NCBI RefSeq assembly: GCF_000227685.2
Contig: NZ_CP007029.1
Coordinates: 1,834,501-1,898,500, forward strand
Length of the DNA stretch: 64,000 bases
Source: Thioalkalivibrio paradoxus ARh 1
Lineage (GTDB): Bacteria > Pseudomonadota > Gammaproteobacteria > Ectothiorhodospirales > Ectothiorhodospiraceae
Direction of reading: 5' to 3'
The position numbers and the translations under genes were made by a program. Positions 1 through 11,127 of this stretch are shown here, in pieces. The notes under the pieces were generated by a model, which saw only the letters and a list, made by a program, of their open reading frames with translations, made no database searches and was not told the origin of the DNA. Numbering within the stretch: position 1 is the first letter of the stretch; each line of letters starts with the position of its first letter.

Positions 1-500
1 CCGCCGGACAACTGGTCGGGATAGGCGTGTTCCCAACCGTCCAGCCCGACCTGGCGCAAGGATTCCTGGGCACGGGAGGCGCGGTCCGCCGGTGTTGCAC
101 CCTGCACCTCCAGGCCGAACGCGACGTTGTCGACGATCGTCTTGTGCGGGAACAGCGCGAAGTTCTGGAAGACCATGCCGAACTTGCTGCGGCGCAACGC
201 CCGCACCTCGGAGTCGCTCAGCCGGGCAATGTCCCGACCGTCGATCTCCACCGATCCCGAGGTCGGCTCGATCAGCCGGTTGATGCAGCGAATCAACGTG
301 GACTTGCCGCAGCCGCTCAACCCCATCACCACCACGATTTCGCCCTGGTCGACATCGAACGAGACGTTCGCGATGCCGAGGGTCAGGCCAGTGCGCGCAA
401 GAATCTCCTTGCGGTCCAGCCCCTGTTCCAGCAGCTTCAGCGCCGGCCCCGCGGGCTCCCCGAAGAACTTGGTCAAATCGCGGATGCGGATCTTCGGCAT
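1..500 (-). CDS. proV: Glycine betaine/proline ABC transporter ATP-binding subunit, partial (3' end outside window)
   Basis: This is the N-terminal 166 codons of a ProV-type ATPase that energises uptake of glycine betaine or related compatible solutes from the cytoplasmic face of the inner membrane. The start ATG (498-500) opens MPKIRIRDLTKFFGE. The ProV-typical segment LLEQGLDRKEILARTG precedes the Walker A motif GLSGCGKST, followed by a Q-loop (FQNFALFPHKT). The window ends inside the ABC signature LSGG. The EQGL...TG stretch separates ProV-type ATPases from ordinary amino-acid importers. It lies 101 bp downstream of the aminomutase gene on the same strand, so the two are probably co-transcribed. 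The permease and binding-protein genes would lie beyond position 1. Confidence 0.9.
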   Translation of the reverse strand, partial: MPKIRIRDLTKFFGEPAGPALKLLEQGLDRKEILARTGLTLGIANVSFDVDQGEIVVVMGLSGCGKSTLIRCINRLIEPTSGSVEIDGRDIARLSDSEVRALRRSKFGMVFQNFALFPHKTIVDNVAFGLEVQGATPADRASRAQESLRQVGLDGWEHAYPDQLSG

Positions 501-601
501 GGTGACCGTCTCCTTCCAGCCGTTGGGGCCGGCGTGTGCCACCGCTCGGCGGGCTGCATGCGGCCAGGCGACCGGCTCACCGCGTGCACGCCGCCTTCGC
601 T

Positions 602-1966
602 TCAGGCGGCCGGCTTCATCGACGCGAACTCGTCTTCGAAGAAGAACCTGGGCTCGTTGAAGGCCGGTCGCAGCTGGTCCAGCCAGGTCGCCTGCGGATC
701 GAACTTCGCGAAGAACGGGCGTTGCACCCAGTCCGGGTTGCGTCCCTGCACGAAACGCAGAACGAAGACCTTCTCGCCATGGACCTCGGTCACGCCCTGC
801 ACCTCGACCTTGCCCGGGCCGGCACTCATCGACGGCCCGCGCGCGGTGCGCGCCAGGCCCGAGACCGATTGCATCGCATCCCGGTAGATTTCCCAGGCCC
901 GTGCCAGTGGCACCTCGAAGTACCGGCGAGCCCCGGTATCGCGTTCCACGAACATGTAATACGGGTGGATCCCCAGCTTCACCTGCTCGCGCCATAGACG
1001 CGCCCAGACGGCCGGATCGTCGTTGATGTGCGCAAGCAGCGGTCCCTGCGCACGCAGGGTCGCCCCGGTTTCGCGCAGGCGTCGGACCGCGGCGTGCGCG
1101 ATCGGCGTATCGAGTTCCTGCCAGTGGTTGTAATGCGCCATGATCGCGACATTCTTGCCCGCATCGACCATCCGTTCGAGGAGTCGGAGCAGGTCGTCGG
1201 CGTCCTGGTCGGTCACGAACCGGTAGGGCCAGAAGCTCAGTGCCTTGGTGCCAATGCGCACCGACTGCACGTGGTCGTATTCCGGCGCCAGCAGCGGCTC
1301 GAGGTACTGGGCAAGGTTGCGGGTCTTCATCACCATCGGATCGCCGCCGGTGATCAGCAGGTCGGAGACGTCGCGGTGCGCCCGCAGGTATCCGAGCAGC
1401 TGGTCGACCTGGCTCGACGCAATGCGCAGTTCCTTGTCGCCGACGAACTGGGCCCAGCGGAAACAGAACGTGCAGTAGCTGTGACAGGTCTGGCCCTGGC
1501 TCGGGAAGAACAGCACGGTCTCACGATACTTGTGCTGCAGGCCGTTGATCACGCTCCCTTCCAGGTCGCGCGGCCGGTTGAGTTCGAGCTGTCCGGCCGG
1601 GTGCGGGTTCAGATCCTCGCGCAGCTGCCAGGCGAGCGCCGAGATCTGCGCGCGGTCCGCGCCCTTCCGGTGCAGTTCGGCCATGCGTTCGAATGCCTCG
1701 GGAGCCAGCATCTCGCGCTGGGGAAACGTCAGCTGGAAAAGCGGGTCTTCCGGAACCCGGGACCAGTCGATCAGCTCGTCGATCACGTACTCGTTCACCC
1801 GGAACGGAAGCACGCTCGCGACCACGCGCATATCGAACTGCATGTCCTCGGGCAGATGCCGGATCGCGTCGATGCGGTCGAGGCTGCGTTCGTTGAAGAC
1901 CTTGAACTCGCGCGTCTCGATGGTCCCGAGGTCGGGGTCGCGAAAGAACTTGAGAACTGAGTTCAT
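602..1966 (-). CDS. KamA-family radical SAM amino-acid 2,3-aminomutase, substrate uncertain
   Basis: A 454-residue PLP- and SAM-dependent aminomutase of the lysine 2,3-aminomutase family. The radical SAM cluster motif is C161-HSY-C165-TF-C168, followed by the GGDP segment near 208. The PLP lysine is probably K386 in AGPGK. Family members move an alpha-amino group to the beta position. Aligning by eye to clostridial lysine aminomutase, the two aspartates that hold the lysine side-chain amine fall on R342 and S379. Glutamate 2,3-aminomutase is known to carry Lys and Asn at these places, so an acidic substrate such as glutamate is conceivable. The gene is first in a probable operon with proV, which fits synthesis of a beta-amino-acid osmolyte. 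Family assignment is firm; substrate is inference. Confidence 0.85.
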   Translation of the reverse strand: MNSVLKFFRDPDLGTIETREFKVFNERSLDRIDAIRHLPEDMQFDMRVVASVLPFRVNEYVIDELIDWSRVPEDPLFQLTFPQREMLAPEAFERMAELHRKGADRAQISALAWQLREDLNPHPAGQLELNRPRDLEGSVINGLQHKYRETVLFFPSQGQTCHSYCTFCFRWAQFVGDKELRIASSQVDQLLGYLRAHRDVSDLLITGGDPMVMKTRNLAQYLEPLLAPEYDHVQSVRIGTKALSFWPYRFVTDQDADDLLRLLERMVDAGKNVAIMAHYNHWQELDTPIAHAAVRRLRETGATLRAQGPLLAHINDDPAVWARLWREQVKLGIHPYYMFVERDTGARRYFEVPLARAWEIYRDAMQSVSGLARTARGPSMSAGPGKVEVQGVTEVHGEKVFVLRFVQGRNPDWVQRPFFAKFDPQATWLDQLRPAFNEPRFFFEDEFASMKPAA

Positions 1967-2206: not shown

Positions 2207-3319
2207 ATGCATCCCGAATTTCCCCACCAGGGCATCATTCACCTGAATCACGCGGCCGTTGGCCCCTGGCCGCGGCGAACGGCCGACGCGGTCGCTGCGT
2301 TCGCGCGCGAAAACCTCGTGCAGGGTTCGCGCGAGTACGCCCGTTGGCTGAAGGTCGAGCACGAGGCCCGGGAGCTGGCGCGGCGGCTGATCGGTGCGCC
2401 GGCAGCCGACGACATCGCGTTCGTGAAGAATACGTCGGAAGCCTTGTCGATGGTTGCACTCGGGCTGGACTGGCCACCGCAGGCGAACATCGTGATCCCG
2501 GCGGGCGAGTTCCCTTCCAACCGGATCGTCTGGCTGATGGCGGCGGAACGGTTCGGGCTCGAGCTGCGCGAGGTGGCACTCGACCGCGGTCCGGATCCCG
2601 AGGCGGCGCTGCTGGCCGCCTGTGACCGGAATACCGCGCTGCTGTCCTGCAGCGCGGTGCAGTTTGCCAGCGGTCTGCGCCTGGACATCGAGCGGCTGGG
2701 TACCGAGCTGCGCCGCCGGGACATCCTGTTCTGCGTTGACGCGATCCAGCACCTGGGAGCCCTGCCCTTCGATGCCGCGTCCGTACACGCGGATTTCGTG
2801 ATGGCCGATGCCCACAAGTGGCTGCTGGCTCCGGAGGGAATCGCGCTGTTCTACGTGCGCCCGGAAATCCGGGATCGCCTGCAGTTACAGGAATTCGGCT
2901 GGCACATGCTGGCGGATTCCGGCGATTTCATGACCTACGAGCTGACACCTGCAGCCGGCGCGCGCCGCTTCGAACCCGGAAGCCCGAACCTGCTCGGAAC
3001 CCATGCGGTGCACGCCAGCCTGTCGCTGCTGCTGGACACCGGGCTGGAGACCATCGCCCGGCAGATCGACGCGCATTGGCGGCAACTGCACGAGGGGCTC
3101 ACATCGCTCGGTTGCCGGGTGCTGACCCCGGTCGATCGGCATGCGGGTATTCTGACGTTCTTCCCCGCCCACGGCAGCCCGGAGTCCCTGTTCCAGCACC
3201 TGCAGGCCGCGGGTGTGCTGTGCGCGCAGCGGGGCGGTGGTATCCGCTTCTCGCCGCATTTCTATCTGTCTCCTGGAGCGCTCGAGGAGGCACTGGCTCG
3301 GGTCGCCGACCACCGCTGA
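2207..3319 (+). CDS. Aminotransferase class V family PLP enzyme
   Basis: A 370-residue fold-type I PLP enzyme of the class V (cysteine desulfurase/isopenicillin-N epimerase-like) family. The PLP-lysine segment is DAHKWLLAPEGIALFYVR. The upstream VDAIQHLGALPFD carries the usual aspartate of the cofactor site, and HLNHAAVGPWP near the N-terminus is typical of the family. The ATG at 2207 is chosen because GGAG sits 6 bp upstream and the family N-terminus begins there; an in-frame GTG or similar start at 2153 would add 18 residues of no known counterpart. It is divergent from the aminomutase operon and convergent with pilZ. No catalytic loop cysteine was recognised, so a desulfurase role is not supported. 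The substrate is unknown. Confidence 0.8.
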   Translation: MHPEFPHQGIIHLNHAAVGPWPRRTADAVAAFARENLVQGSREYARWLKVEHEARELARRLIGAPAADDIAFVKNTSEALSMVALGLDWPPQANIVIPAGEFPSNRIVWLMAAERFGLELREVALDRGPDPEAALLAACDRNTALLSCSAVQFASGLRLDIERLGTELRRRDILFCVDAIQHLGALPFDAASVHADFVMADAHKWLLAPEGIALFYVRPEIRDRLQLQEFGWHMLADSGDFMTYELTPAAGARRFEPGSPNLLGTHAVHASLSLLLDTGLETIARQIDAHWRQLHEGLTSLGCRVLTPVDRHAGILTFFPAHGSPESLFQHLQAAGVLCAQRGGGIRFSPHFYLSPGALEEALARVADHR

Positions 3320-7340: not shown

Positions 7341-8644
7341 GATGTCAGTGCGTCCAGCAGCCCCTGGGCCTTGTGCCGGGTCTCCTGCAGTTCCGCCTCG
7401 GGGTCGGAATCGGCCACGATCCCGGCTCCGGTGCGGAACCGCAGGTCCTGCCCGCGCACCACGAAGGTGCGGATCAGGATATTGGTATCCATCCGTCCGT
7501 CCCGGCTGATGTACCCGCAGGAGCCGGTGTACGCGCCGCGCGATGCGCCCTGCTCGAGCTCCCGAATGATCTGCATGCTGCGAATTTTCGGGCAGCCGGT
7601 GATGGTGCCCCCGGGAAAGCAGGCCCGCAGCAGATCGGCGGGAGTCGCGCCGGGCCGCAGCCGCGCCTGAACCGACGACACGATATGGTGAACCCGACGA
7701 TAACTCTCGATCGTCATGAACTCGGGAACGCAGACACTGCCCGGAACCGCAACCCGTCCGAGATCGTTCCGCTCGAGGTCCACCAGCATCACGTGTTCGG
7801 CGATTTCCTTGCGATTGACCTTCAGATCGCTGGACAGCGCGTGGTCCTTCATCGCATCGGCATCCCTGCGACGGGTCCCGGCGATCGGGCGGGTCTCCGC
7901 CACACCGTGCCTGACCGCGACCAGGCGCTCGGGAGACGAGCTGAGCACCTCGCCCCCGGGAAGGCGCAGCCAGGCGGCGAAGGGTGCCGGGTTCGCACGC
8001 CGCAGCCGCGCGTACACGTCTGCGGTATCCCAGGGTCGGGACGAGCGGATCCGCCATTCGCGAGACAGATTGGCCTGAAAGCAGTCACCGTCCCGAATGT
8101 AGCGCAGCGCACGCCGCACCGCCTGCCGATAGTCTTCCGGATCGTCCTCGTCGAGCTGCATCGGGGGCCATTCCGCAGGGTCCGCATCGCCCACGCCCGC
8201 GAGATCGGCGCGCACCTGGTCCCAGCGCTGCGGGTCGTCGTCTTCGTCGACGAAGTAACTCCGGCGCTCCCAGTGGTCCACGATCAGCGCCGCCGGGAAC
8301 CGGGTCAGCACCGCGCTCGGCAACCAGGGATCGGGCGTGCAGGCGCCCAGCGACGGCTCGATCGACCACGCCAGTTCGTATCCCAGGTAGACGAACCAGC
8401 CGCCGGCGAACGGCAGCCCCGGGGGGGGCTCCGGCTCCCGCATCGCGTCGAACGGCCCGATCCCTGCGAGGCCGTCGAGTACCGCATCGCCGGTCAACTG
8501 CGCGCCGGGAAATGCGAACAGAATCGAGAAACGCGCGGGCGCCTGCCCGATCAGCGCGGTATCGAGCAGATGCGGATAACGCTGGGGGTGACTGCGGGCC
8601 AGCGCCCAGAGATCCGCGCCCGTCGCGAGCGGCCGGACGGACAC
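7337..8644 (-). CDS. pabB: Aminodeoxychorismate synthase component I
   Basis: A chorismate-binding enzyme of about 435 residues that aminates chorismate for p-aminobenzoate synthesis. The C-terminal chorismate-binding domain contains FPGGTITGCPKIRSMQII, typical of PabB, and GAGIVADSDPEAE. The nucleophile motif reads PIAGT rather than the PIKGT of E. coli PabB; PIAGT forms of PabB are known. The gene overlaps pabC, which supports PabB over anthranilate synthase. The GTG at 8644 just after the fabF stop is preferred; reading further upstream would run into fabF. The start is uncertain because no clear ribosome-binding site is seen. Confidence 0.85.
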   Translation of the reverse strand: MSVRPLATGADLWALARSHPQRYPHLLDTALIGQAPARFSILFAFPGAQLTGDAVLDGLAGIGPFDAMREPEPPPGLPFAGGWFVYLGYELAWSIEPSLGACTPDPWLPSAVLTRFPAALIVDHWERRSYFVDEDDDPQRWDQVRADLAGVGDADPAEWPPMQLDEDDPEDYRQAVRRALRYIRDGDCFQANLSREWRIRSSRPWDTADVYARLRRANPAPFAAWLRLPGGEVLSSSPERLVAVRHGVAETRPIAGTRRRDADAMKDHALSSDLKVNRKEIAEHVMLVDLERNDLGRVAVPGSVCVPEFMTIESYRRVHHIVSSVQARLRPGATPADLLRACFPGGTITGCPKIRSMQIIRELEQGASRGAYTGSCGYISRDGRMDTNILIRTFVVRGQDLRFRTGAGIVADSDPEAELQETRHKAQGLLDALTS

Positions 8645-8652
8645 GGACCCGA

Positions 8653-9891
8653 CTACAGGGTGCGGAACACCAGCGAGCCGTTCGTCCCGCCGAAGCCGAA
8701 CGAGTTCGACAACGCGACCCGCGCATCGACGTCCCGCGCCTCGTGGGCCACGTAGTCGAGATCGCAACCGTCGCCCGGATGGTCCAGGTTGATCGTCGGG
8801 GGCGACACCTTGTGATAGAGCGTCAGCGCGGAAAACAATGCCTCGATGCCGCCTGCGGCCCCGAGCAGGTGACCGGTCATCGACTTGGTCGAATTCACCA
8901 GCACTCGCTGCGCATGGTCGCCCAGCGCGCGCTTCACCGCCAGTGTCTCGGCGAGATCGCCGGCCGGCGTCGAGGTCCCGTGGGCATTGATGTATCCGAC
9001 CTCGTCGGTGTTCGCGCCGGCATCCTTCAGCGCCTTCAGCATGCAGTCGGCCGCGCCCTCGCCGCCCTGGGACGGCTGGGTCATGTGATAGGCGTCCGAG
9101 TTCCAGGCAAAACCCGCGAGTTCACAATAGATGCGCGCACCACGCGCCCTGGCGTGTTCATACTCTTCCAGCATCAGCACGCCGGCCCCGTCGCTGAGCA
9201 CGAACCCGTCGCGATCGCGGTCCCAGGGACGCGAGGCCCGCGCCGGATCGTCGTTGCGGGTCGACAGGGCGCGGGCGGCGGCGAAGCCGCCGATTCCCAG
9301 TGGCGTGGTGGCCATTTCCGCCCCGCCGGCCAACATCGCGTCGACGTCGCCATAGGCGATCATGCGCGCGGCATCGCCGATGTTGTGGGTGCCGGTGGCG
9401 CAGGCCGAGACGATGGAGATGTTCGGGCCTTTCAGGCCCTTCATGATCGACAGGTTTCCGGCGACCATGTTGATGATCGCGCTGGGAACGAAGAACGGCG
9501 AGATCTTCCGCGCCCCGCCCTTCAGGTAGGCTGCGTATGAGCGCTCGATATACGGCAGACCGCCGATACCGGACCCGATCGCGACCCCGATGCGCTCGGC
9601 GTTCGCCTCGGTCACGGCCAGACCGGAGTCCTCCAGCGCCTGCAGGCCTGCGGCGAGACCGTAGAGCACGAAGGTGTCCATTTTCTTCTGGTCCTTCTTG
9701 GGAACGTACTCGTCGGCATTGAAGTCCCGCACCGCTCCCGAGATCCGGACTGGCATTTCCGATGCGTCGAAAACATCAATCGGCGTGATCCCGCTCTTGC
9801 CGGCGACAATGTTTGCCCAGGCCGTTTCCACCGTGGAACCCACCGGAGAGACGATCCCGAGACCTGTAACCACCACACGACGCTTAGCCAA
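8653..9891 (-). CDS. fabF: 3-oxoacyl-ACP synthase II
   Basis: A 412-residue condensing enzyme that elongates acyl-ACP with malonyl-ACP in type II fatty acid synthesis. The catalytic cysteine lies in [15 protein letters not shown]. The two histidines are in [11 protein letters not shown] and [12 protein letters not shown]. The N-terminus [18 protein letters not shown] is standard. It lies 101 bp downstream of acpP with a strong hairpin in between, and pabB follows 8 bp after its stop. Confidence 0.95.
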
Positions 9892-9915
9892 TTGAATTCT
9901 CCCTCAGAAATGGAT

Positions 9916-9958
9916 GAAGCAAGGGCCGCCCCGAGGCTCCGCGAGCGGCCCTTGCTTC
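9916..9958 (-). other. Intergenic hairpin between acpP and fabF
   Basis: Arms GAAGCAAGGGCCGC (9916-9929) and GCGGCCCTTGCTTC (9945-9958) are perfectly complementary over 14 bp around a 15-nt loop. No T-run follows on the transcribed minus strand, so full termination is unlikely. It could stabilise the abundant acpP transcript or lower read-through into fabF. Confidence 0.6.
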
Positions 9959-9992
9959 GGTATCCATCGGAAAAGCCGCAAACCGGCCTGGA

Positions 9993-10232
9993 TCAGTCTT
10001 TCATGTGCGCCTTGATGTAGTCGATCGCCTGCTGCACGGTCGTGATCTTCTCGGCCTGTTCGTCCGGGATTTCCGTCTCGAATTCCTCCTCGAGCGCCAT
10101 CACCAGTTCCACGGTGTCGAGCGAATCGGCACCCAGGTCCTCGACGAACGAGGCGGAATCGGTCACGTCCTCTTCCTTCGCGCCCAATTGCTCAACCACG
10201 ATCTTCTTGACACGTTCTTCAATGCTGCTCAT
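9993..10232 (-). CDS. acpP: Acyl carrier protein
   Basis: A 79-residue acidic carrier protein. The serine of [16 protein letters not shown] receives 4'-phosphopantetheine and carries the growing acyl chain in the cytosol. Its size and the [21 protein letters not shown] start are canonical. It sits between fabG and fabF. A TAGAAT -10-like element on the minus strand (10278-10283) about 46 bp upstream, just past a hairpin, suggests its own promoter, as is usual for this highly expressed gene. Confidence 0.97.
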
Positions 10233-10277
10233 CTACGACATCCCCTTTGGGTGTAAGGCGGTCAATTTTCGAGCGCC

Positions 10278-10312
10278 ATTCTAGTGAAAAGCCCCCGTGC
10301 AATCCAGCACGG
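10278..10312 (-). terminator. Hairpin with short T-run after fabG, plus acpP -10 element
   Basis: On the minus strand, CCGTGC and GCACGG (10295-10312) form a stem followed by GGGGGCTTTTC and then TAGAAT at 10278-10283. This resembles a weak intrinsic terminator for fabG immediately followed by the -10 box of an acpP promoter. The T-run is only four bases, so termination is probably partial. No convincing -35 was seen. Confidence 0.4.
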
Positions 10313-10389
10313 TGCCGCCTGTGCTGGGGCACGATCCACCCGGTTGTGGCCCCGTGGTCTCGGTGGCCCGGGCAACCGGAAACCACTGG

Positions 10390-11127
10390 TCAATGCATGA
10401 ACATGCCGCCGTTCACATGCAGCGTCTCGCCGGTGATATACCCCGCGTCGCGGGATGCGAGAAAAGCGACCGCCGCGGCCACTTCTTCGGCGGCGCCAAG
10501 ACGGCCGAGCGGGATCCCCTCGAGCAGCTTGGCCCGGGTCTCGTCACCGAGTTCGCGCGTCATGTCGGTGTCGATGAACCCCGGGGCCACCGTGTTCACG
10601 GTAATGTTGCGACTGCCGACCTCGCGGGCCAGCGCGCGGGCGAAGCCCGCCAGCCCTGCCTTTGCCGCGGCATAGTTGGTCTGCCCTGCGTTTCCGCTCG
10701 ATCCGACGACCGAACCGATCAGGATGATGCGGCCGCTCCGTGCCTTCATCATCGGTTTCAGCACCTTCTGCGTCAGGCGCACCGCCGCGGTGAGGTTGGT
10801 GTCGATGATGCTGTCCCACTCGGCGTCCTTCATGCGCATCAGCAGGTTGTCGCGGGTGATGCCGGCGTTGTTCACCAGCACCTCGATGCTGCCCTCCCGT
10901 GCCTGGATGTCGTTCAGCGCCGCCTGCACGGACGCGACGTCGGTGACGTCCAGCACCAGGCCGCGGCCTCCGACATCGGCCAGCGCCGACGAGATCCGGT
11001 CGGCGCCGGGTGCCGATGTCGCGGTGCCGATCACCGGCCAGCCATCCTCGGCCATGCGTCTTGCAATCGCGGCCCCGATCCCCCGGCTCGCGCCGGTGAT
11101 CAAAGCCGCACCTTTCGTTTCGGTCAT
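10390..11127 (-). CDS. fabG: 3-oxoacyl-ACP reductase
   Basis: A 245-residue short-chain dehydrogenase that reduces 3-oxoacyl-ACP with NADPH. The cofactor motif is TGASRGIG near residue 11, NNAG follows near 87, and the catalytic Ser/Tyr/Lys set is in GSVVGSSGNAGQTNYAAAKAG. The ATG at 11127 has AGAGGA 8 bp upstream; a longer upstream reading would have no family match. It lies 50 bp downstream of fabD and 157 bp upstream of acpP. Confidence 0.95.
   Translation of the reverse strand: MTETKGAALITGASRGIGAAIARRMAEDGWPVIGTATSAPGADRISSALADVGGRGLVLDVTDVASVQAALNDIQAREGSIEVLVNNAGITRDNLLMRMKDAEWDSIIDTNLTAAVRLTQKVLKPMMKARSGRIILIGSVVGSSGNAGQTNYAAAKAGLAGFARALAREVGSRNITVNTVAPGFIDTDMTRELGDETRAKLLEGIPLGRLGAAEEVAAAVAFLASRDAGYITGETLHVNGGMFMH

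Follow-up and report, generated by a model that had tools for sequence, protein, structure and literature searches.

Lysine 2,3-aminomutase (LAM; KamA/AblA; PDB 2a5h, TIGR03820) shares with the KamA-like protein described here (hereafter the mutase) its fold, the Cx3Cx2C motif, the PLP lysine and the arginine that holds the substrate alpha-carboxylate, but the mutase has R342 and S379 in place of both aspartates that contact the lysine amine, and a longer N-terminal part. In the known glutamate 2,3-aminomutases the two side-chain sites carry conserved Lys and Asn (PMC3965090), so that, as in the mutase, the first site is positive and the second small and polar, whereas the residues of the mutase are Arg and Ser; the group comprises the Clostridioides type and, putatively, IdnL4, which was implicated as a glutamate mutase by genetics (PMC11284099). 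Similarity-based annotation is known to mislabel such glutamate mutases as lysine mutases (PMC3965090). EpmB (EF-P beta-lysylation) belongs to the same family and is present in the same genomes as the mutase; in the source genome a gene of its own (G000:C1:2833383) encodes the EpmB-like copy, which carries D/E at these two sites. Arginine 2,3-aminomutase (BlsG type) is also a KamA family member. The genes neighbouring the mutase resemble another described system, the ProVWX/OpuA betaine ABC transporter, which they match as ProV and an OpuAC betaine-binding protein.

The mutase gene lies in the genome of the soda-lake bacterium Thioalkalivibrio paradoxus ARh 1, a single contig of 3.76 Mb, within a stretch of 64,000 nucleotides (the window, GC 66.4%). 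Its open reading frame is uninterrupted, begins with ATG and is preceded by the ribosome-site-like GAAGGAGG. The segment first described, positions 1–1966, takes in the mutase but no more than the initial 500 bp of proV, which runs out of the window into proW and proX, followed by bioA (proVWX occupies 7518–10500 in the fetched locus L003). The features are collected in Table 1.

Table 1. Coordinates of the features of the mutase locus within the window.
Feature	Position	Strand	Basis
5' part of proV; betaine-type ABC transporter between mutase and bioA	1..500	(-)	Gene order, models
Gap of 101 bp from mutase stop to proV start; ribosome-site-like GGAAGGAG 5' of proV	501..601	(-)	Sequence
KamA-like radical SAM/PLP aminomutase, 454 aa	602..1966	(-)	C161/C165/C168, R170, R342, S379, K386
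Codon of K386, presumed PLP Schiff-base lysine (LAM K337)	809..811	(-)	Alignments
Codon of S379, GPSMS motif (versus LAM D330)	830..832	(-)	Alignments
Codon of R342, ERDTG motif (versus LAM D293)	941..943	(-)	Alignments
Codons of CHSYCTFCF, radical SAM cluster motif, residues 161-169	1460..1486	(-)	Sequence
Divergent class V (SufS-like) aminotransferase	2207..3319	(+)	Conserved neighbour; order aminotransferase, mutase, bioA

The active site residues were placed by three methods, namely a phmmer comparison with PDB 2a5h, a MAFFT alignment of about 135 rows and an hhalign profile-profile comparison of 57 KamA-like with 15 LAM-like sequences. In all of them R342 falls without gaps on LAM D293 and S379 on LAM D330, and the same alignments pair K386 with LAM K337 and R170 with LAM R134. 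The LAM reference of the MAFFT alignment, the control comparison and the tree was not a database copy; its stretch 99–340 was matched by eye to 2a5h, and its key residues lie at the expected positions 134, 293, 330 and 337. Because no gap separates the conserved PYY motif from residue 342, nor S379 from K386, the sequence comparisons exclude a one-residue shift; D343, which the preliminary description had considered for the first site, lies off the D293 position in the phmmer, MAFFT and hhalign alignments alike. What was described there, an enzyme of KamA type that keeps the radical SAM cysteines and the PLP lysine and has R342 and S379 at the two lysine-binding aspartates of LAM, was confirmed.

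These residues are strongly conserved. The cysteines of the C161-x3-C165-x2-C168 motif are invariant in the 57 rows of one clade alignment, and K386 and R170 are kept in all 134 aligned MAFFT rows, which contain some redundant entries of the same genes. Arginine occupies position 342 in 132 of these rows, the exceptions being both copies of the EpmB-like paralog of the source genome, and position 379 is Ser in 125, Val in 6 (the residue of the actinobacterial copies) and Ile in one. The LAM-like controls have Asp at both side-chain sites (15/15). R342/S379 is therefore an old feature kept throughout the clade, neither chance nor a local change, and its conservation supports the earlier proposal that a positive residue takes the place of an amine-binding Asp and that the enzyme probably does not act on lysine.

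A comparison with the curated family models gave TIGR00238 (KamA family) as the best match (E 6e-42), with 143.8 bits against a cut-off of 199.2; the mutase is homologous to the KamA family yet lies outside its curated limit. Membership in the models for LAM (TIGR03820, AblA; 124.6 bits, cut-off 525.4), glutamate 2,3-aminomutase (TIGR04368; 102.1 bits, cut-off 650), EpmB (TIGR03821; 104.4 bits, cut-off 369.3) and arginine 2,3-aminomutase (TIGR04468, BlsG type; 87 bits, cut-off 600) is ruled out by scores far under the cut-offs, and the actinobacterial and Burkholderiales relatives score like the mutase in the curated models. The mutase has neither the D293/D330 pair of LAM nor the Lys/Asn pair of the glutamate enzymes. 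Pfam PF04055 was matched with 21.7 bits, below its gathering score of 29.5; the Cx3Cx2C motif, together with a predicted fold that matches radical SAM structures, places the protein in the radical SAM superfamily, and the PLP lysine and the alpha-carboxylate arginine place it among the KamA-type aminomutases. LAM is its best solved match both in sequence (2a5h, phmmer) and for the predicted fold (Foldseek, E 2e-17, TM 0.60–0.67). The model has a mean pLDDT of 87.4, with a block mean of about 70 at the R342 loop and a poorly modeled cluster loop. In a maximum-likelihood tree, built with neither a verified glutamate mutase nor the IdnL4 sequence, the mutase and its relatives group together, set off from the LAM-like proteins by a very long branch; because of the long branches the precise positions of L001, L134 and L126 are uncertain. 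No glutamate mutase sequence above the model cut-off was found in 299 Pseudomonadota genomes, and literature searches returned no published study of the clade, which is probably an uncharacterised KamA-like group of known chemistry.

The mutase is present in 13 of 398 sampled Pseudomonadota genomes, its own included. Marinobacter, Halomonas and Ectothiorhodospira commonly have it, and further carriers are Thauera, Azoarcus, Aromatoleum and Binatota. Many of the host bacteria come from the sea or are haloalkaliphiles, and others live in fresh water or soil. No constant neighbour gene was seen outside Ectothiorhodospiraceae among the neighbour domains of other genera. Relatives in Streptomyces and Mycetohabitans adjoin NRPS genes, and the adenylation domains beside the relatives, read by eye, gave no clear substrate. 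On a Streptomyces cellulosae plasmid (L130, 1622–10338) a relative is accompanied by type III PKS, enoyl-CoA hydratase-like, aminotransferase and NRPS genes, of which the PKS, hydratase and aminotransferase genes resemble the dihydroxyphenylglycine set. A Rhodococcus plasmid (L128, 9001–18988) carries a relative of the Arg/Val type in a cluster with cupin, luciferase-like monooxygenase, SidA/PvdA-type hydroxylase, class I tRNA-ligase-like, ATP-grasp and GNAT genes, which has the look of a pathway to an as yet uncharacterised natural product of the hydrazine or hydrazide kind. A rhizobial plasmid (L134, 8755–9894) encodes a KamA-like protein (matching at about 35%) that shares the Arg opposite LAM D293; an ectoine-synthase-like gene, biotin-carboxylase-like (ATP-grasp) genes and numerous transposases lie nearby. 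Many plasmids of Rhizobium and Sinorhizobium encode related proteins (at about 33%).

Gene order was compared in 30 genomes of the same family (Ectothiorhodospiraceae) with loci. In 28 of them bioA lies directly 3' of the mutase gene on the same strand, 26 to 476 bp apart; proVWX stands between the two in the source genome and its 94%-identical sister. In other genomes proVWX is unlinked to the mutase gene, and the closest ProX relatives in other Ectothiorhodospiraceae are encoded far from it. Most simply, proVWX would have entered the space between mutase and bioA in a single lineage; the GC content of proVWX is that of the neighbours and so gives no compositional sign of a recent foreign origin. 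The class V aminotransferase (SufS-like, far below all model cut-offs) adjoins bioA across the family, with the mutase present or absent, so the link to bioA may be positional only; it was taken as such and bioA was discarded as a pathway partner. In the genus itself a full mutase is absent from 10 near-complete genomes, in all of which the aminotransferase and bioA genes are adjacent, and one of these (G030) retains a 37-aa C-terminal remnant of the mutase just before bioA (L176, 1362–1472), a decayed copy. The gene is therefore dispensable, with at least one loss. A homologue with 70% identity (G046:C4:1907411-1908748) has one in-frame TAG and represents either a pseudogene or a sequencing error.

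The preliminary description had further raised the possibility of a beta-glutamate osmolyte pathway, with the mutase gene in one operon with proV. The adjacency itself was verified, with proV on the same strand 101 bp after the mutase stop, and co-transcription is plausible, no terminator-like site being found in this gap. An arginine would suit a carboxylate, many carriers live in marine or haloalkaline habitats, and beta-glutamate and the eam gene have been tied to salt in other bacteria (PMC9337991). However, the 30 same-family loci, where linkage to osmotic genes is confined to the two sisters and bioA follows the mutase in the rest, rule out the proVWX operon as functional evidence. The transporter, the only such system in the source genome, is of the betaine type: ProV passes TIGR01186 (betaine/proline/choline ATPase; 447.7 against 326.6 bits), and ProX is an OpuAC-type glycine-betaine-binding protein whose VEW, AAWLP and TGWTPHW tryptophans align with those of OpuAC proteins of solved structure, positions that presumably form the betaine cage. 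The genome also encodes three BCCT carriers. Published members of Thioalkalivibrio are haloalkaliphiles, and the ten congeners, one with the remnant, do without the mutase; the gene is carried by Thauera, Azoarcus, Aromatoleum and Binatota, relatives stand beside secondary-metabolite genes, and Rfam, riboswitches included, gave no match at the locus. For Thioalkalivibrio, glycine betaine and some sucrose have been published as solutes (PMC5328954); neither these nor the betaine-type transporter nor the BCCT carriers call for beta-glutamate. In methanogens, beta-glutamate reportedly has a source other than an aminomutase (PMC1224877). The osmolyte pathway is thus unsupported and most improbable; judged from these comparisons, the neighbourhood of mutase and proVWX is a local accident and no evidence of a salt-stress pathway.

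We favor, with moderate confidence, a 2,3-aminomutase for an amino acid that most likely has an acidic or neutral polar side chain; the enzyme would belong to an uncharacterised KamA-like clade and have an Arg-lined pocket. Since the cluster motif, the PLP lysine and the carboxylate arginine are kept, LAM-type chemistry can be inferred: a [4Fe-4S] cluster on C161/C165/C168 would cleave SAM to give the 5'-deoxyadenosyl radical, the substrate would form an aldimine with PLP released from K386 while R170 (LAM R134) held its alpha-carboxylate, and the amino group would shift from C2 to C3. R342 and the small S379 would meet the side chain where LAM uses two aspartates, which points to an acidic or neutral polar group, and glutamate is a reasonable guess for the single best substrate; lysine and aspartate are possible ones. 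The mutase would act as a stand-alone, dispensable enzyme, and the glycine-betaine-type proVWX need not share its pathway. Against this assignment, the Arg/Ser pair differs from the Lys/Asn pair of the known glutamate mutases (PMC3965090), so that its recognition of glutamate would be a different solution; moreover, the R342 loop is modeled at moderate confidence and the cluster loop poorly. The lysine-N-hydroxylase-like and hydrazine-type genes beside the Rhodococcus relative would suit lysine as well, and this context is one reason why lysine is retained. Cupin, PvdA-like and MetRS-like genes, as found there, are typical of lysine-derived hydrazines. A lysine 2,3-aminomutase with another mode of side-chain binding, such as R342 paired to D343 or E341 and other residues taking the amine, would agree with LAM being the closest solved structure and with the database name of the relatives, a name that similarity-based annotation also gives to glutamate mutases in error (PMC3965090); it is nevertheless unlikely, as no clade member has either of the amine aspartates and the 15 LAM-like controls have both, and the score is far from the AblA cut-off. 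Another small amino acid (aspartate, serine, alanine or similar), converted for a vitamin or secondary metabolite, would fit the NRPS genes beside the Streptomyces and Mycetohabitans relatives and bioA as a family-wide neighbour, but the absence of a constant partner gene outside Ectothiorhodospiraceae and the possibly positional link to bioA make it a rather doubtful option. The deep separation of the clade, its lack of the pocket residues of LAM and the conserved C-terminal region peculiar to it would be compatible with modification of a protein- or carrier-bound residue, or with radical SAM chemistry other than the 2,3 amino shift; this seems very improbable, given that the cluster motif, the PLP lysine and the alpha-carboxylate arginine are kept, as free amino-acid aminomutases need.

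The database annotation of the relatives is "lysine 2,3-aminomutase", assigned by similarity, though the whole clade lacks the lysine-reading residues; the clade is large and, judging by its residues, probably misannotated. It may, as a tentative proposal, represent a new substrate class, in which a single Arg reads glutamate or aspartate independently of the Lys/Asn solution, in respiring proteobacteria and, as a Val variant, in actinobacterial biosynthetic clusters. The substrate of one member would fix the function of many probably misnamed genes, and a possible gain would be a maker of beta-amino acids for biocatalysis and for the reading of peptide-synthetase clusters.
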